64,000 nucleotides of DNA. It comes from Malus domestica. Its lineage: Eukaryota; Streptophyta; Magnoliopsida; Rosales; Rosaceae. The stretch spans positions 2,124,501-2,188,500 of the forward strand of contig NC_091668.1 of NCBI RefSeq assembly GCF_042453785.1, given 5' to 3'. The notes under the pieces are model-generated. The model was not told where the DNA came from. It did not search any database and saw only the letters and a list, made by a program, of their open reading frames with translations. Position 1 is the stretch's first letter; each line of letters begins with the position of its first letter. A program made the position numbers and the translations under genes. Shown one piece after another: positions 8,667 through 64,000 of the stretch.

Positions 8667-9110
8667 ATGGCAGTTGCTTCGCGCCGCCTTATCTCCAGCT
8701 CGGCCTCATCCACTGTAACCGCCATTTCATCCTTCCCTCCAAAATCAAAAACCCTAATTTCAAATCCGCACGCTTCCCCCAATCTTCAGCTGCCAAAACG
8801 CAGTCGTAGAGACGTCGCTTTGCTCTCCCTCATCGCTCTCATCCCTTCACTCTTCCGACCCGGCCTGGCATCCGGACTTTCCTTCGGCATTTGTGAGCTA
8901 GCTCGCACCATTTTGATTTAGTCCTCTAATTTATAGTTGTTTGCCTTGGAAACCCTAATTTTTTGGGTATTTGCGCAGCAGGACCAAAGGATTGGCTCCG
9001 CGAGCAGAAGAAGAAGGCCTCCAGGTTCCTCTTGGCCCCGATTGATGCCTCCCGTGAGAGCCTCGTCGCGGCTCATCAATTACTCAGTCTCTCTCTCTCT
9101 CTCTCTCTCT

Positions 9111-26600: not shown

Positions 26601-29600
26601 ATCGAAGAGGCGCTCGCTTTCTCAAAAGCTGGGCTCCCCAGAGACCACGAGGGCCGATATCAGAAATCGAAGAGGCACCTACTTTTCCAGCCTTTTCCAG
26701 CCTTGTCAGCACCTGTCACACGCACACTCAGTTTTGCGGAAATTATGGGCATTCTGTCAAAGACGTCTGGGGAAGTAGAAAACACATGAATCTTACTGTT
26801 CAATCACCCACTTCCCACACGCAACAATAGCTCATGGGTACCACAGATAACTTTGCCAAAGTTCTCTGCCAAAGTTGAGCACGTGAAGCTTGCAGCTCCC
26901 ACTACATCGCTCTGACCAAGAAGGGTAAAAGAATAGCAAAGAAACAGCACTAACAAAGTTTAGACCCATAAATTTTGAAGGTCTAGCTACCATATTATTA
27001 CCCACAAGGGTAAAGGAACAGTACCACTGCTGGATAATTGGAAAGTCCCTGTGTGTCAACCTCTGTGCTTCGTGGCAAGGTAGACTAGCAAACATGCCCA
27101 ACCTTTACTCACATTCGAGAAAACACTCCCAATAAGATTGCTTGCTCCAAAATCGAAGAGGCACCGTCCTCCGAATCTCGAGAGCCAGACTCCCAACATG
27201 ACTACTTTCTTAAAAATCGAAGAGAGGGTAAAGGAACAGTACCATTGCTGGATAATTGGAAAGTCCCTGTGTGTCAACCTCTGTGCTTCGTGGCAAGGTA
27301 GACTAGCAAACATGCCCAACCTTTACTCACATTCGAGAAAACACTCCCAACAAGATTGCTTGCTCCAAAATCGAAGAGGCACCGCCCTCCGAATCTCGAG
27401 AGCCAGACTCCCAACATGATTACTTTCTCAAAAATCGAAGAGACACTGCTCCCCGAATCTTGAGAGCCAGACCCCCAGCATGATTGCTTTCTCAAAAATC
27501 GATGAGGCATCGTTCTCCGAATCAATCGAAGAGGCGCTCGCTTTCTCAAAAGCTGGGCTGCTCAGAGACCACGAGGGCCGATCTCAGAAATCGAAGAGGC
27601 ACCTACTTTTCTAGCCTTGTCAACACCTGTCACACGCACACTCAGCTTTGCAGAAATTATGGGTATTCTGTCGAAGACTTCTGGTGAAGTAGAAAGCACA
27701 TGAATCTTACTGTTCAATCACCCACTTCCCACACGCAACAATAGCTCATGGGTACCACAAATAACTTTGCCAAAGTTCTCTGCCAAAGTTGAGCACGTGA
27801 AGCTTGCAGCTCCCACTACATCGCTCTGACCAAGAAAGGTAAAAGAATAGCAAAGAAACAGCACTAACAAAAGTTTAGACACATAAATTTTGAAGGTCTA
27901 GCTACCATATTATTACCCACAACTGTAAAGGAACAGTACCACTGCTGGATAATTGGAAAGTCCCTGTGTGTCAACCTCTGTGCTTCGTGGCAAGGTAGAC
28001 TAGCAAACATGCCCAACCTTTACTCACATTCGAGAAAACACTCCCAATAAGATTGCTTGCTCCAAAATCGAAGAGGCACCGTCCTCCGAATCTCGAGAGC
28101 CAGACTCCCAACATGACTACTTTCTCAAAATCGAAGAGAGGGTAAAGGAACAGTACCATTGCTGGATAATTGGAAAGTCCCTGTGTGTCAACCTTTGTGC
28201 TTCGTGGCAAGGTAGACTAGCAAACATGCCCAACCTTTACTCACATTCGAGACAACACTCCCAACAAGATTGCTTGCTCCAAAATCGAAGAGGCACCACC
28301 CTCCGAATCTCGAGAGCCAGACTCCCAACATGATTACTTCCTCAAAAATCGAAGAGACACTGCTCTCCGAATCTCGAGAGTCATACCCCCAGCATGATTG
28401 CTTTCTCAAAAATCGAAGAGGCATCGTTCTCCGAATCTCGAGAGCCAGATACCACAGACCACTTTTTCAAAGTGCTCTGACAGAGTTAAAACATGTGAAA
28501 CTGGCAGCTCCCACTACCGTGCTATGACCAAGCAGGGTAAAGGAATAGCATTACTACTTGTTGTTAGGGAGACTCCTATATATGTCGACCTCCATCCCCA
28601 ACGGACAGGCAGACCTGCAAAAATGCTCAACCCTTCATCATATCTGAGAGGGCACTCCCAACGAAGCCTTTCGAAATATTCAGCTTTCTTTCCCCCCGAT
28701 AATACCTCTGCAAACAAGCTATACTAGAGCAAGAATATCTCATATCATCAGGGTTAAAAGCAAGAGTATCCCATATCATGCTTTTTCCCTATCTTTTCTT
28801 TTGGCCTTGTTTTTACCTGCAAGACAAGGAGAAAGAGAACAATCAGTCAGCACTTGGAATCAAGCTTCCAGCCAGGAACTGACTGCCTGGAACCCCTTAC
28901 CTGATTACTTACCTGGCATTGCTCTCGAGTACTCATCTTCAACATCTTATGTTTCCAGGGAAGATTCCGCATCTGCTTGAGGAACAGATAGGGCAAGTGC
29001 GAAGGATACAAGGAAGCATGTGGAGACAAGCGTAACAGCACACGTGCCGATACATTCATTACTCTGTCAAAAGCAAAAGTATCCCATATCAGCAGGGTGG
29101 AACGTACTCTAGATTTGATGGACTTGTTTTGACCCTCAAATTCTTCAGTCGGCCTTATACTCTGGAGGAAACCAGAAAACCCTCCAGCTCAGTTCAAGAA
29201 TAAGCCTGTGGAAAGTTACTTCTTCAAAAGCAAAAGTATCTCATATCATCTCTTCTCATTTTTCTTCTCTTTATCCTTCATGCTGCTGCAAGATGGGGAG
29301 AAGGTGAACAATCAGTCGGAGCTCTGATTGCTTACCTTGTCTGTCACCTCTTTCAGCAGACCCCCTAGCTCGGCGACTTGGGGGACTCCTACTACATGGT
29401 TTGTATCGCGCTTGACCAAGCCTGAAACTACAAGTAAGCTTCAAGTGAAATTGATACATTACCTTGTGCATCTCCACCAGTTAAAGATACCACCCCTGGA
29501 TGGAGGAAGAGTACTTCCAGAGAAGATGCCACATCTACCTATGAGACAGATAAGGCAAGTCAAGACGACACCACACTCCGATACTTAGAAGTTTCGTGAT

Positions 29601-32334
29601 TACGAGATCATTCTCCCACAATATTTCCTAATGTCATTTGTACTAAATCATTCACTTGTACTCACTAAATGAGAGCTTGAACCTATGTACTTGTGTAAAC
29701 CCTTCACAATTAATGAGAACTCTTCTATTCCGTGGACGTAGCCAATCTGGGTGAACCACGTACATCTTGTGTTTGCTTTCCTATCTCTATCCATTTATAT
29801 ACTTATCCACACTAATGACCGGAGCAATCTAGCGAAGATCACAAAAAGCGGTCGTTTTCGCTACCTAGGATCTATCTTGCAAGAGAACGGAGAATTAGAT
29901 GGAGATCTCAACCATAGAATACGAGCTGGATGGAAAGAGTGCATCCGGCGTGTTGTGTGACCGTCGTAGGCCACTGAAGCTCAAGGGAAAATTTTATAGG
30001 ACGGCAATAAGGCTAGCGATGTTGTATGGCACAGAATGTTGGGTGGTGAAGCATCAACACGTACACAAAATGGGTGTAGCGGAGATGAGGATGCTTCGTG
30101 GGATGTGTGGGCACACGAGAAAGGATAAGATTGGGAATGAGGATATCCGAGGTAAAGTAGGAGTAGCCGAAATTGTAGGAAAGATGAGAGAAAATCGGCT
30201 CCGGTGATTTTGAACATGTGCAAAGAAGGCCGACTGACGCTCCGGTTCGAAGATGTGACTACGGGACAGAGGTTCAGGGCCGAAGGGGTAGAGGAAGACC
30301 TAGGACAACTTTGGAAGAGACTCTAAGAAAAGACTTAGAGTACTTGGATCTAACGGAGGACATGACACAAAACCGAGCGCAATGGCGTTCTAGGATTCAT
30401 ATAGCCGACCCCACTTAGTGGGAAAAGGCTTTGTTGTTGTTGTTGTTGTATATACATATACTGATGTGCATGTATATGCTAGTTATCTCCTAATAGTAAA
30501 TGCTGTCAGTCTTACCATAAAAAGAAGTTAAAATTTTTATTTTGTTTGATAGATGGTACCAGACATCGAGTGGGGAAAGAATATCCGTGTGGTGCTGGAT
30601 ATTGGATGTACAGATTCTGCCTTTGGGGCTTCTCTCGTTGATAAGGATGTATTAACATTGGCATTGGGTTTGAAAGATGACCTAGTTGACCTAGCTCAAG
30701 TTGCCCTCGAGCGTGGTTTGCCTGCTTTTGTTAGCCCTTTTCGAAATAGAAGACTGCCTTTCCCCAGTAGTGTTTTTGATGCTGTTCACTGTGGCGGTTG
30801 CACCATACCTTGGCATTCACATGGTTTTAGTCAATTTCTTCCCACCTTTCATTCGTCATTTTTTCTTCTTGAAGTTTCAAATCCGACTTTAAGTCACACC
30901 TTTGTGATATTCTTTCTTTATCAGGGGGTAAGCATCTTCTAGAGATGAATAGGATTTTAAGGCCAGGCGGATACTTTGTCTTGTCAACTAAACATGACAG
31001 CTTTGAAGATGAAGAAGGTTTGCCCTATGCTGCTAACTCTTAGTGTATCTAAGATTTGTTTGCTTTACGGGATCGTATGATTTTACCGTGAGTTGCTTGT
31101 GCTGAATAATTCGATAACATGTAGCATTTTTTTCTTCTCTTCCAGCCATGACTAAATTGACCGCATCTATCTGTTGGAATATTCTGGCTCATAAAACTGA
31201 TGAAGTCAGTGACGTGGGTGTCAAAATATACCAGAAGCCAGACTCGAATGATATATATGAGCTGAGGAGGAAGAAATATCCGCCTTTGTGCAAGGAAAAT
31301 GAAAACCCAGATGCAGCCTGGTAAGCTTAAATCAACTTGCTGTACAATATTCATCTCTTCCAGGTTTTCTATCATTATATATCCATCCATATTCCATTTT
31401 TCGTTTGTTAATTTTTTGAATGGAATCAGTATGTTAATTGTCCGCGCACGGAAGACTGCTTTTCAATGATTTTGTTCTTTATTTAGGACCAGTTAGCGTT
31501 ATGTGTCCCTTAACAGGTATGTTCCCGTGAAGACTTGCTTGCACCCCATTCCATCTGCCATTGAGCAGCATGGCACGGAGTGGCCAGATGAATGGCCCCA
31601 AAGGCTCGAGAGGTATCCTGACTGGTTGAGTGATAAAGTTAACTTGGATGCAGACACCAAGCACTGGAAAGCTATTGTTGATAGATCCTATCTCACAGGA
31701 CTAGGTATCGACTGGTCAAAAATTCGAAATGTAATGGACATGAAAGCCATCTATGGAGGGTATGTCAAAAATTTGAAAAGAACCTTGCACTTTCTTTTCT
31801 ATTCAACAGAAACGCGTCGAAGTTGATTGATAAGTTGAATTGCAATGCTTTTATGCAGATTTGCTGCAGCTCTCACTCAACAAAAGGTTTGGGTGATGAA
31901 TGTGGTCCCTGTCCATGCGCCCGATACACTTCCTTTCATTTTTGAACGTGGCCTTGTTGGAACCTACCACGACTGGTGTGAGTCCTTCGGTACTTATCCC
32001 AGATCATATGATCTTTTGCATGTTGATCATCTGTTTTCACGGCTTAAGAACAGGTGAGTTTCTGTTGCTTGCTGATAAAGTTTCGATTTTGTAAACTATA
32101 CACATATCTTTTACTTCCGGAATACTACTTTGCAGGTGTAAGCAGCCTGTATCAATCGTTGTTGAGATGGATCGCTTGTTACGGCCTGGAGGCTGGGCAA
32201 TTATACGCGAGAAAGTTGAGGTACTGGAACCGCTGGAGGGAATGTTGAAGAGTATGCATTGGGAGATCCGGATGACTTTTGCTCAGGGAAAGGAGGGTAT
32301 CTTATGCGCCCAGAAAACCTTGTGGCGGCCTTAA
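20687..32334 (+). CDS. PMT28: Probable methyltransferase PMT28 (QUA2-like, DUF248)
   Basis: Eight exons: 20687-21535, 21644-21793, 30553-30823, 30925-31017, 31146-31320, 31517-31759, 31859-32053 and 32136-32334. They total 2175 bases, 724 aa, all in phase. It is a type II Golgi membrane protein. A short cytosolic tail is followed by a transmembrane helix near residues 25-42 ([16 protein letters not shown]) and then a K/E-rich stem (about 85-210). The DUF248 methyltransferase domain starts at [20 protein letters not shown]. The SAM site [15 protein letters not shown] is of the PMT28 subgroup; other PMTs have [36 protein letters not shown], and a second half with [17 protein letters not shown] and [15 protein letters not shown] also fit. 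Relatives are thought to methylate cell-wall polysaccharides. Intron 2 is about 8.76 kb because of nested transposons, but its splice sites (GAG|gt and ag|ATGGTACC) look intact. Confidence 0.92.
22089..22103. repeat. Left target-site duplication of the RTE LINE
   Basis: The 15-mer atatacatatactga here is identical to 30450-30464, directly after the (TTG)n tail. The LINE 5' UTR begins right after it with aactccgcctatgtc. Confidence 0.85.
22209..25367 (+). CDS. RTE LINE polyprotein: endonuclease and reverse transcriptase
   Basis: An uninterrupted ORF of 1052 codons. The apurinic-like endonuclease domain starts near residue 103 with [14 protein letters not shown]. It continues with [29 protein letters not shown] (about 237), TQIDFLL and [10 protein letters not shown] (about 333). 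The reverse transcriptase has [49 protein letters not shown] (about 704), [20 protein letters not shown] (about 761) and the catalytic FADDIVL (about 794). The C-terminal tail, with [19 protein letters not shown], is typical of plant RTE proteins. No gag-like ORF1 or zinc knuckle is seen, as expected for RTE. The true start may be internal, for example MRLGTWNIG near 22512. The unbroken frame suggests a young copy, although its own 3' end is replaced at 25366. Confidence 0.93.
25628..26308 (-). CDS. Antisense ORF of the LTR element (coiled-coil protein, unknown role)
   Basis: An open frame of 226 codons on the strand opposite to the element. The N-terminus is [20 protein letters not shown]. 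The middle (about 95-150) forms a predicted coiled coil with [20 protein letters not shown] and [20 protein letters not shown]. The C-terminus is P/S-rich with imperfect repeats of the type EAPNDxPxxPxxS. I recall near-identical hypothetical proteins in other rosid genomes but know of no function. The likely origin is the additional antisense ORF of Tat-type elements. An alternative is a captured host gene. Confidence 0.6.
   Translation of the reverse strand: MKMSGPSDRRFDLNLVEEAAPPSPDNIWRPSFVSPTGPLTVGDSVMKNDMTAAVVARNLLTPKDNRLLSKRSDELAVKDSLALSVQCAGSVSNMAQRLFARTRQVESLAAEVMSLKQEIRGLKHENKQLHRLAHDYATNMKRKLDQMKETDGQVLLDHQRFVGLFQRHLLPSSSGAVPRNEAPNDQPLMPPPSRVLSSTEAPNDPPPVPSLSGALPTAETSPKQPL
26440..28440. 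repeat. Nested tandem repeats (~64, ~220 and 914 bp periods)
   Basis: At the left, units of about 64 bp carry 'aaatcgaagaggcgtttgct' and 'gggctgctcagagaccacgag' type words (26450-26690). A larger unit is repeated with a 914-bp period: cacacgcacactcag is at 26717 and again at 27631. Inside each large unit, a block starting gggtaaaggaacagtacca occurs twice, about 215-222 bases apart (27009 and 27231; about 27926 and 28140). The overlapping ORFs that share the repeated peptide [11 protein letters not shown]-type sequence on the minus strand are repeat artefacts. The array lies inside the LTR-element remnant. Confidence 0.85.
29845..30449 (+). mobile_element. Second copy of the RTE LINE 3' end with (TTG)n tail
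   Basis: It matches 24790-25365 at about 96 percent by eye, starting near cggtcgttttcgctacctagg. It contains small indels and substitutions relative to the first copy that interrupt the LINE reading frame: six bases are missing near 29933, and the frame shifts again near 30205. It continues past the point where the first copy stops (cacttagtg) into ggaaaaggc(TTG)n and then the target duplication. Confidence 0.9.
30450..30464. repeat. Right target-site duplication of the RTE LINE
   Basis: Identical 15-mer to 22089-22103; it directly follows the (TTG)n tail and is followed by PMT28 intron sequence. Confidence 0.85.
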
Positions 32335-36479: not shown

Positions 36480-39385
36480 CTACCAGGTTAGGGGTTTGAT
36501 TACTGTCATGTTCTAGGAACAGTTTTGATTGTATTTGATTGAAGTTTTACGTACGTGAAACAGTATTTTCACAACATAACTGCAGTCTATAAATTAGAGA
36601 GAGAATTACTGTTTATGTTCCCATACATTATTATCCTTTAGTAATTCTCTGCTTCGTTGTTTCTGGGAAAGTTTTACTCTGCAATGATTATGTTTCAATA
36701 ACGTCGTAAATATGAAGCTACTGTTAATTAGGGAGAGAATTACTGTTTATGTTCCGATTCATTCAAATCGATTCAAAGGTTCTGGCTACTTGATGTCTTT
36801 TGTGTTCTTAGCTCTTGGGACTTACAAGAAACGGGGACACTAGGATAGCGGTTTGCCAAACCTATGGGGCGGTGTGTTTGAACTTCATGCATTATGTCAC
36901 GTGATTGGTTTGGGACACAAGCGCTTTGGCGTTTCAATCAACATCAATTTGAATATAATCCTTCTCACCTTGTATTGTAATAGGAATTAGATTTTTTTCT
37001 CCCCCAAATCCTCTCCATCTCTCCTCCCACTTTCCTCATTGTCTTCTCTGTAAAGAAATCACCCAAAATGTTGACGTGATTTAATTGTGACTGTTCAAAT
37101 AGAAGAGGATTGTAGTAAAGGAAATTTCGAGAGGAAATTGTCGTCACTTGTAAATATCATACGCAGCTTTACACATCAGCCAACCTCATTATTGCATTAT
37201 TTTTTTTTTCACTTAGTTTTTATTTAGTTTTTTGTATTACTGTTAGGCAGAGCAAATTATGTCATTACCCAAAAGATGTCCAATCAGTAAATTTTATTTC
37301 ACGAGCGAAAAATTGTACTATATGTCTAGTCATTTTAAATTTCCACTGTTCTTTTCGCAAATTTAGGTTCAAGTCTTGTTCGCCCATCCAATAAAATGTT
37401 GAATCGTTGGCGTTTAAATATGTAAATGAAGTATCAATGATAAAAACGACGCATCTTAATCAATAACGTATGAATATGATTGTTAATATTTGGTGATCGT
37501 ACATACCGTGTGATTAAATGATCCAGCGATTTGACTTAAGATTCTTTCATCTAAATCGAGCCTAGAGATATCGTGTGCATTTGGAAGCATGAGTTTTCTT
37601 CATAATTCAGGGCGGGGACTTGAGAAGCCACACCATAAAATCGTGGTTCAAACTCTTCTTTATAAAAATCAAACCTAACATCTTTGATATACGAGAGAAT
37701 AAATATCATTAAACCACAATATTAAGTGACTGTATATTCAATAACTTTGAATCTAGTGACTAGACCTGACAAATGGATTGTATTTGTGTTGTTTTCATGT
37801 CATACTCATCATCGTTACGGGTCGCATTGTACCAAACTCGTTATCTTAACGTTTGCTTAACAGCTAAACCCGATAATGACCCGATTAACGAACATGTTAC
37901 GTATTTTGTGTCATGTTAACGCGTTATGTAAAAAATTGATATGTCTAATGTCTTGATATGACAAACGATATATTATCAGGTGACTGATAACGACTGACTT
38001 GTTAACAAGTTCTTAACGTACAACTCGATAACGACCTGACTTATTAATAGATTGACCCGAAATTTATTATTTTAAAGTCTTTTCGTCCAACTCGATAACG
38101 ACCCGATTCATCTTCATTGGGCAATACAATTTGCTTTTCGTAAAGTGTCATACAACTCATCGCGCTGCAATCAAACAGTGGCTGTGGATTCTGGAAATCA
38201 AACAAACAGTGGGCGGCGTCTGCTGCTGATATGTATCGTTGAGGTGAGGTGGGCCGCCACAACCCAACAACTTGACGAGTGGAAGCAGGAACCATTGGGC
38301 CCCACCCAACACAAGTATAAAGCACGTCAAGACGGCTCCAGCCCTGCCAACTCCCAAATCCCTTTTCTCTTCCTCCTCATCTTCCTCGAACATATCTCAA
38401 AACCTTTACAAAACCAAATTATAACTCTCTATTTAATAGTAGGTATTTGTCGATTTCTCCATGAACTGTCAATTTTTCTTTCAATTTTAATTTTACTCAG
38501 TTATTTTCTTGAACTTTTATAATCGGCTAATTTTCTTTCAGAATTTTAATTTTATCGATTACTCTGTTAAACTTTTATAATTGACCTTTTTTTTTTACTT
38601 TAGATTTTGAATTTTTTTTATTTAATTTTCCATCCATTTTGGATGTGTGCACAACAAAAAGGTAATTTTATCTTGATTAAAAAGTTAATCCGTTTAAGTT
38701 AAAGTTAAAGTTTAGAGGAAAGTTCGTCAATAATACTAACAATTTTGTACCAATAACAAAACTAAATCGTAAAAAATGAAAATTTGGCAAGTCATTGCAT
38801 GCACGGTGCATATTACCAAAAGATAAATAAAAGTTAAAGATTACTATGGTCCAAGATATAATTACTAAGATTAAATTGTTAAAAATTCCGGAGCATACGA
38901 TATTTCAAAATTTTACAAAATTTTAATTTTGTAGAAATTAAATTTCCTACGAATTATGTAGTTGACATGCGATGCGTAAATGACCATTAAACCCATGGCT
39001 ACAACAATTTTTTGACTTTATGCATGGTTAAACCAGACACGAGGCAGTACTTACGCGTGCGTGGAACCCCTAAGCTGCCACGTCCTACTTATTACAAAAG
39101 CACTTATTGGCTAAACATATAAAATCAGCTTTCTTCTACTAGCTTTGTGCTTTTGTTTCTTAACTTAGAACGTGAGCGTCACGTGCCAGCTGCAGCAATT
39201 TAAGAAAATTAGCAATTGCTCTCCTCTCATCAGTCTCAGAGAGCTGGCTGTGCGGAGTTAGAACTAATAGTGCAAAGCTGTTAACTCCGCACAGCTAAAG
39301 ACAATTTTTTTGTGTGCTTCGGAGTATTTCTATTTTGAATGTCAAACGTTAAATTTTTGTTAAAATTTAACGATTAGAATATTCG
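36480..39385. other. AT-rich intergenic DNA, no gene supported
   Basis: 36480-36780 is the TYW1 3' region and includes a short direct repeat, gagagaattactgtttatgttcc (described piecewise), near 36600 and 36735. 37770-38110 is built of repeated 'gataacgacccgatt/gttaacgcgttat' type words, a degenerate low-copy repeat. 38145-38400 is GC-richer with ORFs on both strands but no family match. Confidence 0.5.
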
Positions 39386-41850
39386 GAGCCTAAAGTATTT
39401 CGGAGCACCTAAAAGCTTTTGCAGCGAAGACCTCTAGATTTTTCAGTCTTCCTCTTCTTTCTAAATTCTGCAGTAAAACAACCCCAACTTTCTTACTCGT
39501 TCATTTTTTACCCACTTCTTTTAACTGCCTTTTATTTTTACTTACTTTGTGTGTGTTTTACCCTTTTCAACATAATTATATTCGCGGACTTGAGATTAAT
39601 CAAGTTGACCATGTCAGTTTGCTTTCTTTGTACGTTTGAGTTTTTGGGTAAATTATTCACAAATTTGATCTTAATTAAATTGGCTATATTAGTGTACTGT
39701 TCTTTTATACATAGTTCGAATTCTCTTCATAAACTTAATTGAATTGATTTAAAATATATCGCTCATATAAAAATTAAAAATTTAACAATTAAAAAATTCG
39801 AGCCTAGAGTATTTAAGAGCACCTAAAAGCTTTTGGAGCCAAAAACCTCCAAATTTTGCAGTCTTCCTTTTCTTTCTAAATTCTGCAGTAAAACAACCCC
39901 ACCTTTCTCACTCATTCATTTTTTACCCACTTCTTTTAATGGCCTTCTATTTTTATTTATTTCATATGCGTTTTACCCTTTTTCATAATTATACTCGCAA
40001 ACTTGAGATTAATCAAGTTGACTATATCAGTTTGCTTTCTTTCTACGTTCGAATTTTTGGGTAAATTATTCACAAATTTGATCTTGATTAAATTGGCTAT
40101 ATTAGTGCATTGTTCTTTTATACCTAGTTCGAATTCTCTTCGTAAACTTAACTAAATTAATTTAAAATATATTGCTCGTATAAAAAATAAAAAATTAACG
40201 ATTAAAAATTTGAGCCTAGAGTATTTCAGAGCACTTTTTTGCAGCCAAAAACCTCCAGATTTTGCAGTCTTCCTTTTCTTTCTAATTTCTGCAATAAAAC
40301 AACCCCACCTTTCTCACTCATTCATTTTTTACCCACCTCTTTTAATGGCCTTCTATTATTATTTATTTCGTGTGCGTTTTACCCTTTTTCATAATTACAC
40401 TTGCGGACTTGAGATTAATCAAGTTGATTGTATCAGTTTTCTTTCTTTCTACGTTCGAATTTTTGGGTAAATTATTTACAAATTTGACCTTGATTAAATT
40501 GGCTATATTAGTGCACTGATCTTTTATACCTAGTTCGAATTCTCTTCATAAACTTAACTGAATTAATTTAAAATATATCGCTCGTATGAAAAATAAAAAA
40601 TTAACGATTAAAAAATTCGAGCCTAGAGTATTTTTAGAGCACCTAAAAGCTTTTGCAGCCAAAAACCTCCGGATTTTGCAGTCTTCCTTTTCTTTCTAAA
40701 TTATGCAGTAAAACAACCCCACCTTTCTCACTCATTCATTTTTTACCCACTTCTTTTAATGGCCTTCTATTTTTATTTATTTCGCGTGTGTTTTACCTTT
40801 TTTCATAATTACACTCACGGACTTGAGATTAATCAAGTTGATTATATCAGTTTGCTTTCTTTATACGTTCGAATTTTTGGGTAAATTATTCACAAATTTG
40901 ATCTTAATTAAATTGGCTATATTAGTGCACTGTTCTTTTATACCTAGTTCGAATTCTCTTCATAAACTTAACTAAATTAATTTAAAATATATCGCTCATA
41001 TAAAAAATAAAAAATTAACGATTAAAAAATTCGAGCCTAGAGTATTTCAGAGCACCTAAAAGCTTTTGCAGCAAAAAATCTCCGGATTTTGCAGTCTTCC
41101 CTTTCTTTCTAAATTATGCAGTAAAACAACCCCAAACAACCCCACCTTTCTCACTCATTCATTTTTTACCCACTTCTTTTAATGGCCTTCTATTTTTATT
41201 TATTTCGTGTGTGTTTTACCCTTTTTCATAATTACACTCACGGACTTGAGATTAATCAAGTTGACCATATCAATTTGCTTTCTTTCTACGTTCGAATTTT
41301 TGGGTAAATTATTCACAAATTTGATCTTAATTAAATTGGCTATATTAGTGCACTGTTCTTTTATACTTAGTTCGAATTCTCTTCATAAACTTAACTAAAT
41401 TAATTTAAAATATCGCTTGTATAAAAAATAAAAATTTAATAGTTAAAAAATTCGACCCTAGAGTATTTCAGAGCACCCAAAAGCTTTTTCAGCCAAAAAC
41501 CTCCAGATTTTGCAGTCTTCCTCTTCTTTCTAAATTCCGCAGTAAAACAACCCCACTTTTATCACTCATTCATTTTTTTATCCACTTCTTTTAATGGACT
41601 TCCATTTTTATTTATTTCGTGTGCGTTTTACCCTTTTCAACATGATTACAATCGCGGACTTGAAATTAATCAAGTTGATTATATCAGTTTACTTTCTTTG
41701 TACATTCGAGTTTTTAGATAAATTAATCACAAATTTGATCTTAATCAAGTTGGTTATATCAATGTACTGTTTTTTTTATACCTAGTTGAAACTCTCTCTA
41801 TTAACTTAATAGAATTAATTTAAAATATCGCTTGTATAAAATAAAAACGT
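39386..41850. repeat. ~410-bp tandem array, six copies
   Basis: The marker gagcctagagtattt or a variant starts at about 39386, 39800, 40212, 40619, 41033 and 41454, giving spacings of 414, 412, 407, 414 and 421. Each unit runs from agcacctaaaagcttttgcag through 'ctcactcattcattttttaccc', 'ttttaatggccttctatttt', 'cggacttgagattaatcaagttga' and 'ttcgaattctcttcataaactta' type sequence (described piecewise) to an A-rich end. The outer units are the most diverged. ORFs of 60-107 codons recur in each unit on the plus strand with the same hydrophobic FxLxxxRFTLF-like sequence, but they are broken differently in different units, so I read them as repeat artefacts. Confidence 0.9.
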
Positions 41851-54270: not shown

Positions 54271-56455
54271 ATATTCTCTAATTATATTGTTTATGCGTGT
54301 GAATAATTTTTATCAAATACTGTTTATATTTAATTTTTAAATAAAAAAATTATAATAATTTTTAATTACATAATATACAATGAACGGATATAATTGAAAA
54401 ATCATTGACATCCTCGTAAAGAAGATCGAAGAGGAATACTCATTCTCATCTCTCGGCTCTGCTGCTTTCCTTTTGCTGTGTTATTCTTGGCGGCAATGCT
54501 ATACCCACTGCGTGGTGATGTTTGGAGCAGTGACAGGCGGCCTAAATCACCCCACGTGTTTTTCGCGCACTTTACGCTGCGTGTGTCCGAAGGCCAATCT
54601 CTTCGCTCTTCTGCTTTCATACGTTCCTCTGTTTCTCTCGGAGGCAATGCTAGAAATACTGGCGGGTGATGTTTCCAGCAAATGACAAGCGACCAAACCA
54701 AACCCACCCCACACGCGGTGTTTCACGCACTTTATGCTGCACGTGTGGCCTGTGCGAGAGAATCAAGTAGAAAATTTTCAGTGTTTCGAAAATATGCTCC
54801 GGATCAACAAGTGTTGTAATAAAAATAGTTAATTTTTTTATAGTAATTAATCACTTGTGTCATGATATTATAAGTTATGATTAATTAAAATGAATTTAAA
54901 TATAGTCCGTTATTTCTTATCTTAAAAGTCTATATCAATCTAACGTTATCTAAGATCCAATAGTCCAACAAACAAACTTTAATAATTCGAATTGTATTTT
55001 TGATATACTAAAAAATCTCTGAGTATCAAGGGTCTTGGTTAATGTGCATGGAGGCAGATTCTTGATGGTGGTTTGACGAAATTCTTGGACATTGAAATGG
55101 AGGAAAGTTGGAGAAGAAAAAAAAATGAGAAATTTTTAATTATAACTTGAACATGGATGGTACACCGTGTTTTTAAGTAAGTGATGAAAAATTTTATTTT
55201 TTAAATTATTAACTTTTAATATACATATTCCAATATTTATATAATAATACATAATGTATCATTCCGTGTGACGATCACACAAAAAAATCTCTCCAAAAAA
55301 GTAACGAGTACATGGAGGAAATAAAAAAGATGAAAGTGAGGAAAAGTAAACCGGCGAGTCGGCAATGCGTGACTATGCGTGGTCGACGTATTGGGTAAGT
55401 GGTGGGTGCTGCTTCGTGCAAGTTGCAAGTGCCGAGTCAACGTCTGCCAAACCAAACAAACAAAACAAAACAACACAACACAACAAAAGGACTTCACTCA
55501 CCAATAATCACTAGGCTTTTTCCAAGTAGGTTAATCGATTCGACATTTTTCGAATAAGCGTCAATTATTCACATGCATATCAATCACTTTTTCACTAAAA
55601 AGTAATGTACGGTGACTTGTTCAAAGTGTGTAAATAATACCTAGTTGACATAATGCGTTTATTTAACAAATTGTGTTTTAAGTTCAAACTCTTGTCCCCT
55701 CCGTTATGAAAGACTTATACTGATGGACATAATTGATGTGTCATTTAACCAAATTCAAAGAAATATGTTGTTTTTGCATTGCATTTCACCAAATCCAAGG
55801 GTCACGAAAGAAAACTAACTCACAAATTACTTCTTAGACATGTCACGAAACTAAAATCCATCACAAATTAAGGAAACCACCAACAAAAACATGAAGAAGG
55901 GGCGCCGTAAAGACTGTAAAAACAAACGTCTGAAAATCACTTCTCTTAAAACTCGAATTGTAATTAGTTAATTGGATATGATCTACAACGATCTCTTTAG
56001 TAAGCCCAATTACTCATCACAAAAGCTAGTCAGCCCAATTACTTATAACAAAAGCTCGTCCACGAAATTCTGAGAAATAAATAAATAAACAATATTTGGT
56101 GGCCTGCAAAACATAAAACTAGCTGGGAAGAGGAACCTTTCCGGATTCATTTTACAGGATCTTAAGAATTTCCACATTTTAGCTACATTATTCGGTTAAT
56201 TTTTATCAGATATTATACTTGTGTTTAATTTTAAATAAAAAAATTAAATAATTTATGACTGCACGATATACAATAAATAATAAATAAGTAAGATATGTGA
56301 GGATTCCTATAATTTCATCGATCCGGATGGGATCCAAGTAGTGACGTATTGGTTGGTTCCATGGACAACGGTTTCCCGCGGAAACGGCAGCGGCTTAATA
56401 CGACTAAGCAATTCCGTATCTGGTTCTCTCTCTCTCGCTCGCGCTCTGCGTTTCC
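54271..56455. other. Intergenic DNA, no gene supported
   Basis: 54492-54745 contains a direct duplication with ~151-155-bp spacing (ggcaatgct at 54492 and 54643; 'tttc(g/a)cgcactttacgctgc' at about 54566 and 54721). The minus ORF at 55237-55497 has a hydrophobic start (MKSFCCVVLFCFVCLVW) but no family match. 56340-56455 is the PEX11A promoter or 5' UTR, with a CT tract just before the ATG. Confidence 0.5.
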
Positions 56456-57241
56456 ATGGACTCGAAACCTTCAACAACCACCGCTCCTCTACTGAACCAG
56501 AAAAATCCTAACAATCCTCCATCGAAGCCGAAGCCAAGGGACTTCCTGAACCACCTCGAAGCCTACCTCGCCAAGCGAGATGGCGTCGACAAGCTCATCA
56601 AGATATCTCGGTACGCCACCAAGATCGTCATCGCCTCCTCCGCCCTCCCGGAAACCCTGCCCCTAACGCAGCGGCTCAAGAGCTTCGAGTCGAGCGTCGG
56701 CGTCAGTCGCAAGGCCTTCCGGTTAGGTAAGTTCGTCCAGGACGTCAACGCTCTGAGGAGCTCGACATTCGATTCGAATCAGGAGCTCGTACTCGCACTA
56801 ATCGCCTACGGCGGCGAGGGACTGTATTTTTTCGTTGAACAGTTCGTCTGGCTGGTCAAATCGGGGTTGATCGATAAAAAGCACTCGCGGAATTTGCAGA
56901 AGATCAGCGCCTGGGCCGAGTTCATCGGGTACGCCGGCAGCATTTAGTTGAAATTCAGGGATTTGAATCGGATCTCGGAAGACGAAAAGTGCGTGAAATC
57001 GAGCATTGAGATCTCGATTACGAGGGGGAACGGGTGTGAGGAAGAGAAGGAGAGGTTGAGTAAATTGCGTGAGAAGAAAATGATGAAGAGGCTCTCTGTG
57101 GTTCAAGATTCGGCGGATGCGTTAATGGCGTTGGCGGATATCCGGGACGGCGGCGGACCGTTCCTAGGGCCGCTTTCGGTATCGCTGGCCGGGATGTTGT
57201 CGGCTCTGATTAGCACTCACAAAAATTGGGTGTCCTGCTGA
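56456..57241 (+). pseudogene. PEX11A: Peroxisomal membrane protein 11A with one premature stop
   Basis: A single-exon frame of 261 coding triplets with one internal TAG. It matches Arabidopsis PEX11A (At1g47750), which elongates and tubulates peroxisomes before division. Residues 28-163 contain [74 protein letters not shown] and [15 protein letters not shown]. The frame then meets TAG at 56945-56947, where the family has a serine (GS-V/I-S-x-K-x-RDL). In the same frame the rest of the protein follows without further damage: LKFRDLNRISEDEKCVKSSI, then DSADALMALADIRDGGGPFL, and the conserved end STHKNWVSC. A TCG-to-TAG change would explain it. The truncated product of 163 aa would lack the C-terminal membrane region. 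A sequencing error, a null allele or a young pseudogene are all possible. Confidence 0.88.
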
Positions 57242-58598
57242 GATTCATGGCCATTTTACAAGGTATGATTGCTGGACACTTTCTTTGTTAATTTGGTTAT
57301 TAATAATTGATCAGTTTTAGAGTTTGTGCTGCAAATTATAGGGGAATAAAACTCAATACGGATTGTTACTGGCCGTGAACTCTAAAAACTCCATGTCTTT
57401 CCTTAAAGTCTTTTTTTAACTCTTCCTAAGTTTTTCTCTACCTCTTTTGTCCCGAGTCTCTGACTCAAAATCACATTTTCTAAGCAGAGCATCTGGAAGT
57501 GGTCGGTTCATATTTTCTAAATGATAAAAAATCAAATGAAGTGACAACTTATATGTAGTGCCTAACGTGAAGAACTTCAATGGATGGATTTGAATGTGTA
57601 AGTGAACCTCACAGAAGTTAGAACAACGGATCGAAAACTCTTGGTTTAGGATCTTAACATTTCGAGTTCGTTTGAAATTTTCATGTTTGGTCTGTCGTGT
57701 ACATCTACATTGTCCTTGAACATGACATGTCTGAATAGTTAGGAGCAATGTAGCCGAAAACATTTGTCGAAGAATATGATTCTCGTATGTCAAATTCGAC
57801 TTTGATGAGGATGAAGATCCCTTAGGGCCCCAATATCTGATTCAAGTACAACTGAATATCATCCCTTAGATCCCTTGGGACTCCCCTTGTTCCCACTCCG
57901 TTTATCGGAAATCTATAGTCGCTTGCCTTTCGGTTCACAGTTACTACCGATGGATGCAGTTTTATGAGTTCAACTAGTTAACAGAGTGGCGATTAAGTGC
58001 ACTCCTCTGTCTCAGTCGATCCATCCGTGGTTCGAGTTGTCACTCCCGCAATCATCTCACTCCACGAAACATTGTTATGTCAATCTGCGACTTTGCTGTT
58101 TTGCGTCGTATACAAGTCGTGTGATAACAGAAACTAGAAAGACGCTTCAGTGGCAATATTCCGCACCGACTATGCAAAGTTTGTATGGTTTGTTGTATTG
58201 TTTTCCGTAAGACTGCGTTTGGTTGGTGAAACAATTGTTTGGGAAAGGAATGTTTGTGAGAGCAGTGTTATTTCCTTCCCCGGTTCGGAAGGTGGAAGGG
58301 AAAGTTTTGTAATACTTGTACAATGTTGCCAACGGCTATTTGGTCATAACATCGAGTAATGGGCCAAACCTACTCAATCAACCCGGCCCATTATATTTTG
58401 TGAAGCTGGGCCAATAGAGTGCAAGCCCAAATCGTATCACGACTATCCACTTCGCAACCAGAATCTTCCCGCCGGTCCGCCTTACTCCTCTTTCCCCAGA
58501 TCCGCACACTCCAATACGCCATCGTTTCGATGACCCTTCCCTAGAACCCCGCCGGACTCGGACCTCCTTCCAATTAGGTTTTTTTTTTTCTTTTGCTG
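57242..58598. other. PEX11A 3' region and intergenic DNA
   Basis: No gene is supported. ORFs at 57416-57793 and 57986-58359 lack family resemblance. 58440-58598 is GC-richer and is the likely LPEAT1 5' UTR, ending in a T tract. Confidence 0.5.
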
Positions 58599-60852
58599 AT
58601 GGTTTCCGAACTCCAAGGCCTCAATTCCAAACAGGCCAAGCAGGACCGCAACGACGGTCCGGCGTCCAAGGACGACTGCCCGCTCCTCAAACCCGAACCG
58701 GCCTCCTCCGTCTCCGCCGAGGAGCTCCAGGAGCTAGAGAATAAATGCGCGGCGTACGTGCGACGCGATGTGTACGGCACCATGGGGCGAGGCGAATTGC
58801 CGGTGAAGGAGAAGGTGCTGCTAGGGCTCGCGTTGGTGACTCTGGTTCCGATACGCGTGGTCCTGGCCATGACGGTGTTGGTGCTGTACTACTTGATTTG
58901 CCGGATTTGCACGCTCTTCAAAATCCCCAATCGCGACGAGCAGGAGCAGGAGGATTACGCGCACATGGGGGGCTGGCGGCAGGCCGTGATAGTCCAGTGC
59001 GGCCGCGCCTTATCCAGAGCCATGCTCTTCGTCTTTGGCTTCTATTGGATCAACGAGTCATATCGGATACCATCGGATTCCGAACCCAAACCCGCACCCC
59101 AGGTACTCTCTCTCTCTCTCTCTCTCACTGTTTCTCTCTCTAAAGCATGAAAATTGATTTCGTGAGATTTTGAGTGGTAATTTTGATGTTAAATTTTTGG
59201 TTAGGGAAAAGATGTTGCCGAAGAAAAGGAGCCTGAAAGGCCAGGGGCGATCATATCGAATCACGTTTCGTATTTGGATACCTTGTATCACATGTCTAAT
59301 TCGTTTCCGAGCTTCGTCGCCAAGGTTTGCTACTCTATATGAATTTTGATTGAAAGATGATCCAATTTTATCTATGTGTTGGTTCTGAGTTTCTGTTATC
59401 CTGGATTTTGTTTGTGAAGAGATCGGTGGCGAAACTTCCTCTAGTTGGCCTCATCAGGTCGGTTGCATTCGCTTTCGCTTGCTTTAATTTCGTCATACTT
59501 CTGAAAATCTGTAGTTTTTCTCCATCATATTTACGGGAGCTAATGGAGTTCGATTTCCGATTGTTGTTTTTGACAGCAAGTGCCTCGGTTGTGTCTATGT
59601 TCAGCGAGAGTCAAAGTCATCCGACTTCAAGGGAGTTGCAGGTACATAAATTGGGGTGCTCCCTGTTTTTGATAGTTTTCTAATCACTCTCAAGGTGCAC
59701 ATCATAAATCTAGCGATATTTGCAGTATCGAGGTGAAAACTATGATCAATCACGAGTGGATATGACACACGAACACTGTATAACGAGTTTTCGGTTGTGT
59801 TACTTGTATGAATGTTGTTTGATTAATAATTGGATATCATTTGCAGCTGTGGTGACTGAAAGAGTTAAAGAAGCACATCAGAATAAATGCGCCCCGCCAA
59901 TAATGCTTTTCCCAGGTTATAGTTTTAAGCACTCTACTATTATAAGAAAGCCCGATTAATGATTTTTCAGCTGTCCTCGTTCTTGGATGTTCAAATCATC
60001 GTTTGTTAATTTATGTGCGTGGAAGGGAACACGAGTTTTCAACCACGCTGAAACTGGTCTGCGATTCATTTGTTAGCAGACGTGCATAATGTTGTCAGCG
60101 ATGCTTATACTTCTGTTACGTGGTATTTATTTTATGGTTAATCTTTCTACAGAGGGAACTACTACAAACGGAGACTTTCTTCTGCCATTCAAGACGGGAG
60201 CATTCCTGGCAAAAGCTCCAGTTCTTCCGGTGATTCTTAGGTATCCTTACCGAAGATTTAGTCCTGCATGGGACTCGATATCTGGGGTGAGTGTTTCTTA
60301 ACCAATTTCCAAGAACACGTATAAAGAAAATACATATATCATGCAGGATAATTATACATACACAAATAGTAAGAATTCAACATGTCAGGCATATAGCCTT
60401 TCGGTCTTCTGAGCTTCTAATTTTGGTTACCTCATTTACTTTATTTTCAGGTGCGCCATGTGATATTTCTTCTCTGTCAATTTGTAAATCACATAGAGGT
60501 CACAAGGTTACCTGTTTATTACCCCTCGCAACAAGAAAAAGATGATCCAAAACTCTACGCTAGTAATGTCAGAAGATTGATGGCCAATGAGGTACATGTT
60601 TCCTCCCGAAAGTATATTATGAAAGCAAAGTTTAAAGCATTTTCTTGCTTGAGAGCGTGACCATCAACTAGGTAGAGATATTAATCGTGCGAGCTCCTGG
60701 TGTTTGTAACTTGATTCCATGTGTGCTTTTTGTTTTGTTTACAGGGCAACATGACTTTATCAGATATTGGACTTGCCGAGAAGCGGGTGTATCATGCTGC
60801 TCTTAATGGTAATAATAGCCGTCCTAGTGTTTTGCATCAGAAAGAGGATTGA
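58599..60852 (+). CDS. LPEAT1: Lysophospholipid acyltransferase LPEAT1
   Basis: Eight exons: 58599-59102, 59205-59324, 59420-59457, 59577-59641, 59847-59915, 60153-60286, 60451-60591 and 60744 to about 60852. The protein is about 392 aa, close to Arabidopsis LPEAT1 (At1g80950). A hydrophilic N-terminus precedes a membrane segment (VLLGLALVTLVPIRVVLAM, VLVLYYLICRICTLF). The PlsC-type acyltransferase domain follows, with the catalytic NHVSYLD (HX4D, His near 188), LGCVYVQRES, the FPEGTT substrate motif formed across exons 5 and 6, and VILRYPYRRFSPAWDSISG. It transfers acyl groups from acyl-CoA to lysophosphatidylethanolamine and related lysolipids at the ER. The C-terminus reads GLAEKRVYHAALNGNNSRPS and ends HQKED. 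By hand I count the last exon as one base off a multiple of three, which I take as a counting slip that needs rechecking. The downstream gene is convergent. Confidence 0.92.
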
Positions 60853-61883
60853 TAAAATTCAGGGCCTCGCTCCCAAATGATATCTAGTCGCAGTTGAGTT
60901 TCGTAGTTTTCGTTCATGATTGCACTAGCCACAGTGAGGGGTGTGCAATTATTAACTTGTAATTCCATGCTTATGGAAACTGTGCCCTTTAACGCTAAAA
61001 TCTTCGAAATATTTGTGTTTTCACCATGTTAAAATGCATTGCAACCCCTTTAGAAGAAACTTTGCACCTGTTGATCTGATCTGAAGCATCTCTTTCATGT
61101 TCATGCAGGTTTGTTTTCCCAATGCTAACTCGGATCGTCATCTGTATATTCATATGGGGTGTGCTATCCACACACCCCAAATTACTTCTCACATACCCTT
61201 GTTAATTTCTGTCCGTTGATCTTCTTCAATTCATCCGATCCGACGGCCGAAAATTAGAATGGTGTGTGAGAAGTAAAATGGGGTGTGTGGATATCACATC
61301 CCTATTCATATATGATTCTATTTGTTATAGGGAAAAATTAAAACTGATACGGATTGCAGAAGAATTATTTTTTGGTCGGAGTAAGTTGAAACGGTATTTT
61401 TACGATGCGCGCCGCTGTGGATTTAAGCTGGCATTCTCAAAGCAGGCGTTTTCCGATTGTTGTATGATCTCAGTTAACGGAGGAGGGAACGGGTTGGCGG
61501 AAGTCGATTTATCTCGACGAGCTTGGCTGGTATATATATTGGTTGTGATTTTGTTTCACCATTATAAAGCTCTGATGTGTGACGATGTATCTCAATCTGA
61601 TCCTTTCTGTTGCAAATTAACAGGTAGGTTTTGCGTAAGAAAAGTTTGAAAGATTAGAACTGATTTAGCAATACCTTCATGAATTTGTTGGAAACTAATA
61701 GTTACAACGATCACAAGCATCAGTCCACAAACCTGGGAGAACACACTCTGCGACGGAGGGAAATTCAGACTCACTCTTGGTATCGATTCTGAGAAGACTT
61801 TTCCCCCTAATTGCTACGTCATCATACTAGATACATTCAAATTACAATTGCGGGCGTAAAGAGCAAGTCTTCCGAACAGTTTC
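60853..61883. other. Spacer between convergent LPEAT1 and DeSI-like genes
   Basis: It holds both 3' UTRs, a 147-bp MITE at 61156-61302, and a plus ORF at 61266-61649 that begins inside the MITE and has no family resemblance. Confidence 0.5.
61147..61311. mobile_element. MITE (147 bp) with 9-bp target duplication
   Basis: The element at 61156-61302 has inverted ends of about 43 bp: GGGGTGTGCTATCCACACAC and, on the other strand, GGGATGTGATATCCACACAC, both followed by CCCA-TTACTTCTCACA. It is flanked by tattcatat at 61147-61155 and 61303-61311. The length of the duplication suggests a Mutator-type MITE. Confidence 0.85.
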
Positions 61884-63094
61884 TCACCTTTCTTTCAACG
61901 AACCATTCAACGATCTTCGCAGTTCCCATGGCGGCAAGCAACCTTTCAGGGGCGACTGTAGAAATAACGAAGATGAAGATAACTGCTTCTGCCGCATTGA
62001 GATAGACGACACGCAACTGAAGGCGCTTCTCAAGCTCCTCTTGTCGCTGTCGTACGGTTGGCAGTTAGGGTCATGTTGTACATCGGAAATCTTCAGAGAT
62101 TCCGGAAGTATGCAGTTGCATACTGAACCTACCACATAACAGTAGAGTTAGTTTACCTCTGCAAACCACTGTTTTTCCATCGTTCATTAGAAATTCGAAT
62201 CTTGATTCGATCCCAGGTAAGACCTTAAAACATGCATGACCTAAGCCGATTTCTTAGGACTATACTTAATATCAGAATGACGACTCTAATGAAACTTAAA
62301 AGCGTTGTTTCACAATGTCCGAAAATACAAAAACAGACCAGAAACTCAAACTCCAAGCTCCATACAGAAGCACGCGCGAATGAAACAAGATCATTACAAC
62401 TGAAAACAGTGGGTGAAGAAAGGATACCAATTCTTGCCAGTCGGTTCACCCATTTAGGAATTGATTTTCCGGTGAGCCTGCGACAAATATCCCTGCAGAA
62501 ATGGTTGCAGTTCTTGACAATCAGGTGATATGTATCCCCGTTGTAGCTCAAAGAATGGCGCTCCATAAACTCTCGAACCTGAGTAGGGTCCAAGCCTGTT
62601 GTCCCGATCAATATCGACCTTCTGAACTTGAACCCTGGGCATTGGCGAGGTTCAACCTCAAAAACACCACTCGTAGGATAGTCATGTGCTCCGAATGCAT
62701 ATTCCACACCATGAACTGCACAATGCATATGGACTATCAGCAAAACCGAACTTCACTCGATCGAAACAAACATAGAACGAAGATTAACAAGGTTATAGTA
62801 ATTTGATAGAATTAAGCAAAACAAACAGAGATAGAGTTCAGCTTGAGATAAACACGAATTGCGTGACCAGAACGTAAGCTCACCTTCAACACCAGAGTGA
62901 AAAATTCCAAAGCCAGCCCAATAGACATAGCCATTCATGGGAGTCAGATCATATACATTGAGATAAACTGGTGCTTTTCCTGATTCAGCGCTATCCGATT
63001 TTGATTTGGGAAATAAACAAAAACGCCCCGCGGATTTGTTCTTCAATTGAAGCGGGGCAACGGATCTCCATCTCTTCTTCAATTCAAATTTCAT
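61884..63094 (-). CDS. DeSI-like protein (PPPDE thiol peptidase)
   Basis: Three coding exons on the minus strand: 62884-63094, 62428-62715 and 61884-62128. They total 744 bases, 247 aa, all in phase. The PPPDE (DUF862) domain starts at VYLNVYDLTPMNGYVYWAGF. The catalytic dyad is His66 (GIFHSGVE) and Cys140 (IVKNCNHFCRD). VEYAFGAHDYPTSGVFEVEP and SLSYNGDTYHLI lie between, and the domain ends in RRLTGKSIPKWVNRLARIG. Relatives such as animal DESI1 and DESI2 remove SUMO or ubiquitin; the plant members (At1g80690 and At4g17486 group) are little studied, so the substrate is unknown. The C-terminus is S-rich and ends PPWELRRSLNGSL. A leader intron is likely, with a donor at 63724 and an acceptor just upstream of the ATG near 63110. 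Confidence 0.92.
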
Positions 63095-63319
63095 GTTTCC
63101 TCAACAAGTAAAAACCAGAACGCACTCAATGCTTGCCTCCAGCCTGTGCATTTGGGTACACATCAAAGGCATTACCACCCAAAGGATGGAAATGCAGTGG
63201 CATTATAAACAAAAGCTCAACACAACTACATACATACAAATATTATCCTCTTTCTTTATCGATGAAAGCGTTATTTTAAACTACTCTAATCTGCGTGAAT
63301 TGCAACTACTTTATTGACC

Positions 63320-63526
63320 ATGGATAAAAGGCGACCTCAGGCCAACAAGGCTCCTGACTTTGCGACGGTCCAGCAATATATCCAACACAACAACAGAAAA
63401 AAGGAAATTCTTTTGCGGGTGATCAAAGATAACAGGCTCCAGTGCAGATCTCAGAGTATAAAATCAGATCCAGTTTCAATTAGTAGAGAGGAAGCAGAGA
63501 AACTTTTAACCAAAATTAACAGATAA
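63320..63526 (+). CDS. Unrecognised 68-codon ORF inside the DeSI-like leader intron
   Basis: It is an antisense ORF to the DeSI-like gene, starting MDKRRPQANKAPDFATVQQY and ending REEAEKLLTKINR. It is basic, helical-looking and not low-complexity. I know no family for it. It may be a chance frame or a fragment of another gene; there is no evidence of expression. Confidence 0.2.
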   Translation: MDKRRPQANKAPDFATVQQYIQHNNRKKEILLRVIKDNRLQCRSQSIKSDPVSISREEAEKLLTKINR

Positions 63527-63889
63527 ATGAGCTTTTCAAAACTTGGTCAATCATAATTCCCACTTGTTTGTTCGTTTTCCCGAGCTTTCTCAGCTACCAA
63601 ACAGGACCCAGAAGAAAAATTCAAGCCCCGGAAGATACATGAACTCATAAAACGAAAATTTAAAGGAAAAAACTGGAAGAGATTGAAAGTTCTTAGAAAA
63701 AAATGAACAACTGTGGGACTCACCGAATAAGAGAAGACAGCCATTGGAGGGCAGCAAAACCCAACTTCTTTCTTGAACACTAAAACAGCTGCGTTTCTGT
63801 ATTTTCAGAGCTCAGAAATGCCAACAGCTGCTCTGAAATGGAAGGCCTTCGTGATCTTGCTGCAACCCCCTCATTATTATTTTTTAATT

Positions 63890-64000
63890 CTAAAAAAAAA
63901 CTAAAGAAAATGATTTGAAAAAGTTAAGTTTTAACGGAAATGATAAAATAAATAATAAAATGAATAGTATTATAATTAACTTTTTAATATAAAAATATAA
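63890..64000 (-). repeat. Copy of the dispersed ~140-bp repeat, cut by the window end
   Basis: On the minus strand it reads ttatatttttatattaaaaa, then gttaattataatactattca, then 'ttttat-atttccgttaaaactt' and 'tcaaatcattttc', the same order as in 54113-54270. Confidence 0.6.

Follow-up and report, generated by a model that had tools for sequence, protein, structure and literature searches.

A lone in-frame TAG in an otherwise preserved apple PEX11 frame: probably a recent nonsense allele backed by an intact homoeologue

Introduction

A single stop codon interrupts a PEX11 gene of Malus domestica whose reading frame looks otherwise sound. Is this a gene caught in the course of being lost, an error in the assembled sequence, or a stop with which the gene still works? 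The gene lies in a stretch of 64,000 nucleotides (C8:2124501-2188500), hereafter the window, which was compared with the genome of 651,096,769 bases in 19 contigs. Among titles and opening parts of abstracts on PEX11 and peroxins in apple, we found no study of the PEX11 gene family in this plant.

Results

A PEX11 frame with one stop codon

The single-exon gene occupies positions 56456-57241 of the window on the forward strand (262 codons including the terminal one). Its frame runs from an ATG at 56456 to a TGA at 57239-57241, and its codon 164 is TAG (Table 1). Residues 1-163 match the Pfam family PEX11 (PF05648) over profile positions 1-137 (E = 1.9e-30, 106.5 bits), and the 97 residues 3' of the TAG match it over positions 140-222 (E = 8.6e-11, 42.2 bits), the two parts adjoining at profile positions 137/140. 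Both scores exceed the family cut-off of 23.8 bits, and the match on either side of the TAG is far beyond chance. Besides the TAG, no stop, frameshift or indel was found across 56456-57241 relative to the 261-residue homoeologue on C15. The original prediction of a TAG in an otherwise preserved frame is thus borne out by the Pfam matches on both sides and by the ungapped alignment with C15. We take the gene to be of the PEX11A type, following that prediction.

Hydropathy analysis of the C15 homoeologue revealed peaks at residues ~109-131 and ~234-254, and a product ending at residue 163 lacks the second of these hydrophobic segments. An uninterrupted frame through the second membrane segment is therefore present in C15 and absent in C8.

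Table 1. Location of the C8 gene parts, of the related copies and of the two background genes with a lone stop. Plain numbers are window positions.
Feature	Location	Strand	Identity	Basis
CT-rich leader adjoining the ATG; C2 and C8b similarity starts near here	56424..56455	+		copy alignment
PEX11 frame 5' of the stop, 163 codons, N-terminal part and first hydrophobic segment	56456..56944	+		Pfam; C15 hydropathy
In-frame TAG, codon 164; TCG in C15 and C2, TCA in C8b	56945..56947	+		copy comparison
Frame remainder, 97 codons and TGA, undamaged, second hydrophobic segment (~234-254)	56948..57241	+		Pfam; C15 hydropathy
C15 homoeologue	C15:1784915-1785700		93%, 786/786 bases	
C2 copy (L014)			92%, 755 bases	DNA search
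C8b copy	C8:2538826		89%, 592 bases	DNA search
C13 copy, two pieces	L016 (C13:18662500-18672499), 2444-2690 and 8875-8983			DNA search
106-base piece, 3' part of PEX11A only (bases 601-706)	C8:9828736-9828842			DNA search
GRAS match, whole profile, single in-frame stop	C3:22020849-22022117			profile search
KCS-family match, whole profile, single in-frame stop	C16:30346528-30347397			profile search

The C15 homoeologue and other genomic copies

A DNA search of the genome identified seven places with PEX11A-like sequence, the C8 gene included, and no second allele of the C8 gene was among them. The C15 copy aligns with the C8 gene over 786 bases with 54 mismatches and no gaps (93.1% identity), has an open frame of 261 residues and scores 160 bits against PF05648 (profile positions 1-222). 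The downstream neighbour of the C8 gene (window 58445..63911, forward strand), which we take to be LPEAT2-like, is matched in order on C15:1789649-1795473. Its first exon is open in both the C8 and C15 copies (168 codons, no stop), and two of its exons gave no Pfam match. Upstream of PEX11A, the region C15:1730000-1784880 showed no collinear gene-like match, so that it is the single downstream neighbour that carries the collinearity with C15. The dS values between C8 and C15 are 0.257 for PEX11A and 0.202 for the first exon of the neighbour; a PEX11B-like pair described below yields 0.225 for its 5' part and 0.316 for its last 40 codons. All are consistent with one genome duplication.

The other copies are visibly damaged, with two stop codons in C2, frameshifts in C8b and a split in C13. 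About 6.2 kb of other sequence lies inside the decayed C13 copy, and ~7 bases of the gene are found on both sides of the break. The 106-base piece lies just past the point where the similarity of C8b ends.

Elsewhere in the window, an open frame of 1057 residues (22194-25367) has, by eye, the look of a LINE-type endonuclease and reverse transcriptase, and the bulk of 22104-30449 is matched on C15:1819965-1827523 at 97% identity. At 39362-41841, six copies of a 414-base unit follow one another in tandem. An Rfam scan of the window gave no match at the gathering score.

Polarity of the stop

Among the four copies that cover codon 164, the TAG is private to C8, because C15 and C2 have TCG (Ser) and C8b has TCA. 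One TCG-to-TAG change is enough to account for it, in keeping with the original prediction. The same prediction called the lost residue a conserved serine, which holds for all three other PEX11A-type copies covering the codon but not for the PEX11B-like protein, which has a valine. This serine thus appears to be kept among PEX11A-type copies only and not family-wide.

In 623 shared columns, nine sites join C2 with C8b and one joins C2 with C8, and C2 and C8b therefore look like sisters. C2 has 43 differences to C8 and 76 to C15, and C8b has 64 and 92, respectively. Judged by these comparisons, C2 and C8b branched off the C8 lineage once the duplication had taken place, and the TAG is younger than that split.

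The C8b copy, which retains its whole 5' end but is truncated at the 3' end, is carried by an LTR-type element at C8:2538003-2542286 (~1504-5787 of L015). The two LTR copies of this element are 94% identical over 354 aligned bases, and it has TG...CA ends with GACTC on either side. The C2 copy and this element have flanking sequence in common, and thus one capture of PEX11A seems to have spread to both places.

Selection on the C8 branch and age of the stop

Changes were assigned to branches over 251 codons with C15 and C2 as references, two ambiguous sites being dropped. Since its split from C2/C8b, the C8 branch has accumulated nine changes, seven synonymous, one nonsynonymous and one nonsense. 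The C15 branch, stem included, has 29 synonymous and 11 nonsynonymous changes, and the C2 branch 16 and 29, plus three changes at its two stop codons. From the substitution spectrum, the nonsynonymous share expected under neutrality is 0.70-0.73. C8 departs from neutrality (P = 0.0007-0.0013 for at most one nonsynonymous change of eight, and 0.002-0.004 with the stop pooled), and therefore selection acted on this gene until recently, whereas C2 fits neutrality (P = 0.24-0.42). Fisher tests gave P = 0.015 for C8 versus C2 (0.023 with stops pooled) and P = 0.66 for C8 versus C15.

The region 3' of the stop tells the same story, with four synonymous changes (at three codons) and no nonsynonymous change on the C8 branch. 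The dN/dS comparison with the duplicate suggested in the original prediction gave 0.092 overall, 0.142 before the stop and 0.038 after it. Thus, the C8 gene, its 3' part included, was under constraint until very recently. Relaxed selection after the lesion is not visible among the nine changes of the C8 branch, a small count, as expected if the stop is very young; the stop is therefore the one feature that marks the gene as a pseudogene. If the whole gene was relaxed on acquiring the stop, the 95% bound on its age is 0.0083 substitutions per site, or ~6% of the homoeologue branch, and if the 3' part alone was relaxed the bound is 0.0147, or 11.5% of that branch; both count one nonsynonymous change, assume a single rate and draw on few changes. 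The first reading of the locus had held the stop to be young, unreal or tolerated. The ratio of seven synonymous changes to one nonsynonymous change and the stop, together with the low dN/dS, argues for a young stop or an artefact, and nothing specific was found for a tolerated one.

The same data bear on the idea of an old pseudogene or a retrocopy at the C8 locus, like the four other decayed copies or pieces in the genome. We consider it extremely improbable, given the downstream neighbour common to C8 and C15, the single lesion and the overall dN/dS, and given how different the decayed copies of C2, C8b and C13 look. The shared neighbour speaks against a retrocopy, and the branch counts speak against an old pseudogene.

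Nonsense allele or sequence error

The C8 homoeologue of PEX11A most likely carries a nonsense allele of recent origin, either segregating or fixed, that the C15 copy would buffer. The main rival, an assembly or base-calling error in a tree that has TCG and an intact gene, is unlikely. It would account for the lack of any sign of relaxed selection; the genome search found a single C8 allele and no second one to confirm its base, and in another PEX11 gene, on C7, a conserved frame is likewise interrupted by one isolated lesion. Nevertheless, the change is a substitution outside a homopolymer, and long-read errors are mostly indels. Excerpts of a published account put the heterozygosity of two apple cultivars at ~1.3% (PMC11631450), which we count in favour of a nonsense allele.

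We also asked how often lone stops occur in this genome, in two background families. GRAS and KCS genes are mostly single-exon, and matches were taken as full-length when they covered the profile, 63 partial ones being left out. For GRAS, 110 of 144 candidates were scored and there were 113 matches, 81 of them covering the profile: 78 have no stop, one has one TAG and two have three or four stops. KCS gave 55 matches, 24 covering the profile, 23 without a stop and one with a single TAA. That 101 of the 105 full-length matches lack a stop speaks against an assembly error, although the count is blind to frameshifts. A lone stop occurs in 2 of the 105, which makes the C8 case ordinary; since frameshifted genes would mostly escape the full-length set, lesions are probably more frequent than this count shows.

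An unlikely alternative: a tolerated stop

It is improbable that the stop is real but tolerated, be it through readthrough, a stop-removing intron or a functional N-terminal form of 163 residues. An intron has some appeal: there is a full 5' splice match (TAG/GTAAGT) at 56727, the mutation itself creates an AG that is a potential acceptor, and there are 168 GT-AG pairs whose excision would take out the stop and keep the frame. Yet the in-frame pairs with the new AG have weak donors (at most 5 of 8 matches) and a GC content of 0.53-0.57. The strong donor at 56727 keeps the frame with later AGs only, leaving proteins of 114-176 residues, and neither the C15 homoeologue nor the C1 PEX11B-like gene needs an intron for an open frame here. 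The 15 pairs best by donor and the 10 with the new AG, out of the 168, included no convincing candidate. Programmed readthrough is at odds with the absence of the stop from all three other copies covering codon 164, and the bases 3' of the TAG presumably do not fit the leaky CARYYA context. As for a short form, the N-terminal part contains the amphipathic region that, according to excerpts of two papers, is required for membrane elongation in human PEX11beta (PMC3538539, PMC8853631), but truncation removes the second hydrophobic segment.

A second PEX11 pair

A protein search added a pair of genes, at C1:27881948 (L017) and on the minus strand at C7:32427049 (L018), whose products are 38-40% identical to the C15 protein and which we take to be PEX11B-like. 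The C7 gene has gained two bases (GA) near CDS base 530, and its frame ends after 179 residues (226 in C1). Between C7 and C1, dN/dS is 0.089 up to the lesion and 0.069 in 40 codons beyond it. Each of the two single-exon PEX11 pairs identified thus has one member (C8 of C8/C15, C7 of C1/C7) with one isolated lesion. This pattern, noticed post hoc and given no P value, may have arisen by coincidence, through two recent losses within a family of redundant genes, or from a pair of assembly errors. Both cuts fall 3' of the N-terminal membrane-remodelling part and leave a conserved remainder of the frame, but it is very improbable that the cause is selection after duplication for a lower dosage of PEX11 or for short N-terminal forms.

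Discussion

We infer a true allele with a null product, buffered by the duplicate. In the C8 homoeologue of the single-exon PEX11A, a recent C-to-A transversion would have changed a serine codon, TCG, to TAG. The resulting allele would yield a product of at most 163 residues that lacks the second membrane segment and is most likely degraded or without function. The plant would tolerate this loss thanks to the intact C15 copy and to the redundancy of PEX11 proteins, which act through dosage. The PEX11 genes that remain here are the C15 copy, the C1 PEX11B-like gene and exons on C1 and C7 that are presumably PEX11C-E-like. In Arabidopsis, one study describes pex11ab double mutants as indistinguishable from the wild type under normal growth; more generally, double and triple pex11 mutants resemble the wild type in normal conditions, whereas abcd and abcde mutants are impaired (PMC13351133). 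This pattern points to redundancy and dosage, and according to the authors it is mainly the number of gene doses on which certain PEX11 functions depend (PMC13351133).

The event is ordinary in kind, either a redundant duplicate being lost or a broken allele. If real, it captures a very young homoeologue loss in which decay has yet to begin, and the same genome supplies both an intact duplicate and a copy evolving neutrally for comparison. Surveys of PEX11 dosage across cultivars or species would thereby gain a clean marker.

Excerpts of the literature on human PEX11beta place its hydrophobic segments near residues 90-110 and 230-255 (PMC3538539), and the C15 protein likewise has two at comparable positions. 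The plant PEX11 peroxisome-division proteins (PF05648) are matched by both halves of the C8 gene and by C15 over profile positions 1-222, but the C8 frame differs from theirs in being broken at codon 164. Fractionation is the recent loss of one duplicate, here after the genome duplication of the apple tribe. As in nonsense alleles and fractionation after duplication, one homoeologue (C15) is intact and the other (C8) has one disabling lesion relative to it, after a past of purifying selection. The C8 gene differs from fractionation in that its lesion is so young that no subsequent decay is visible.
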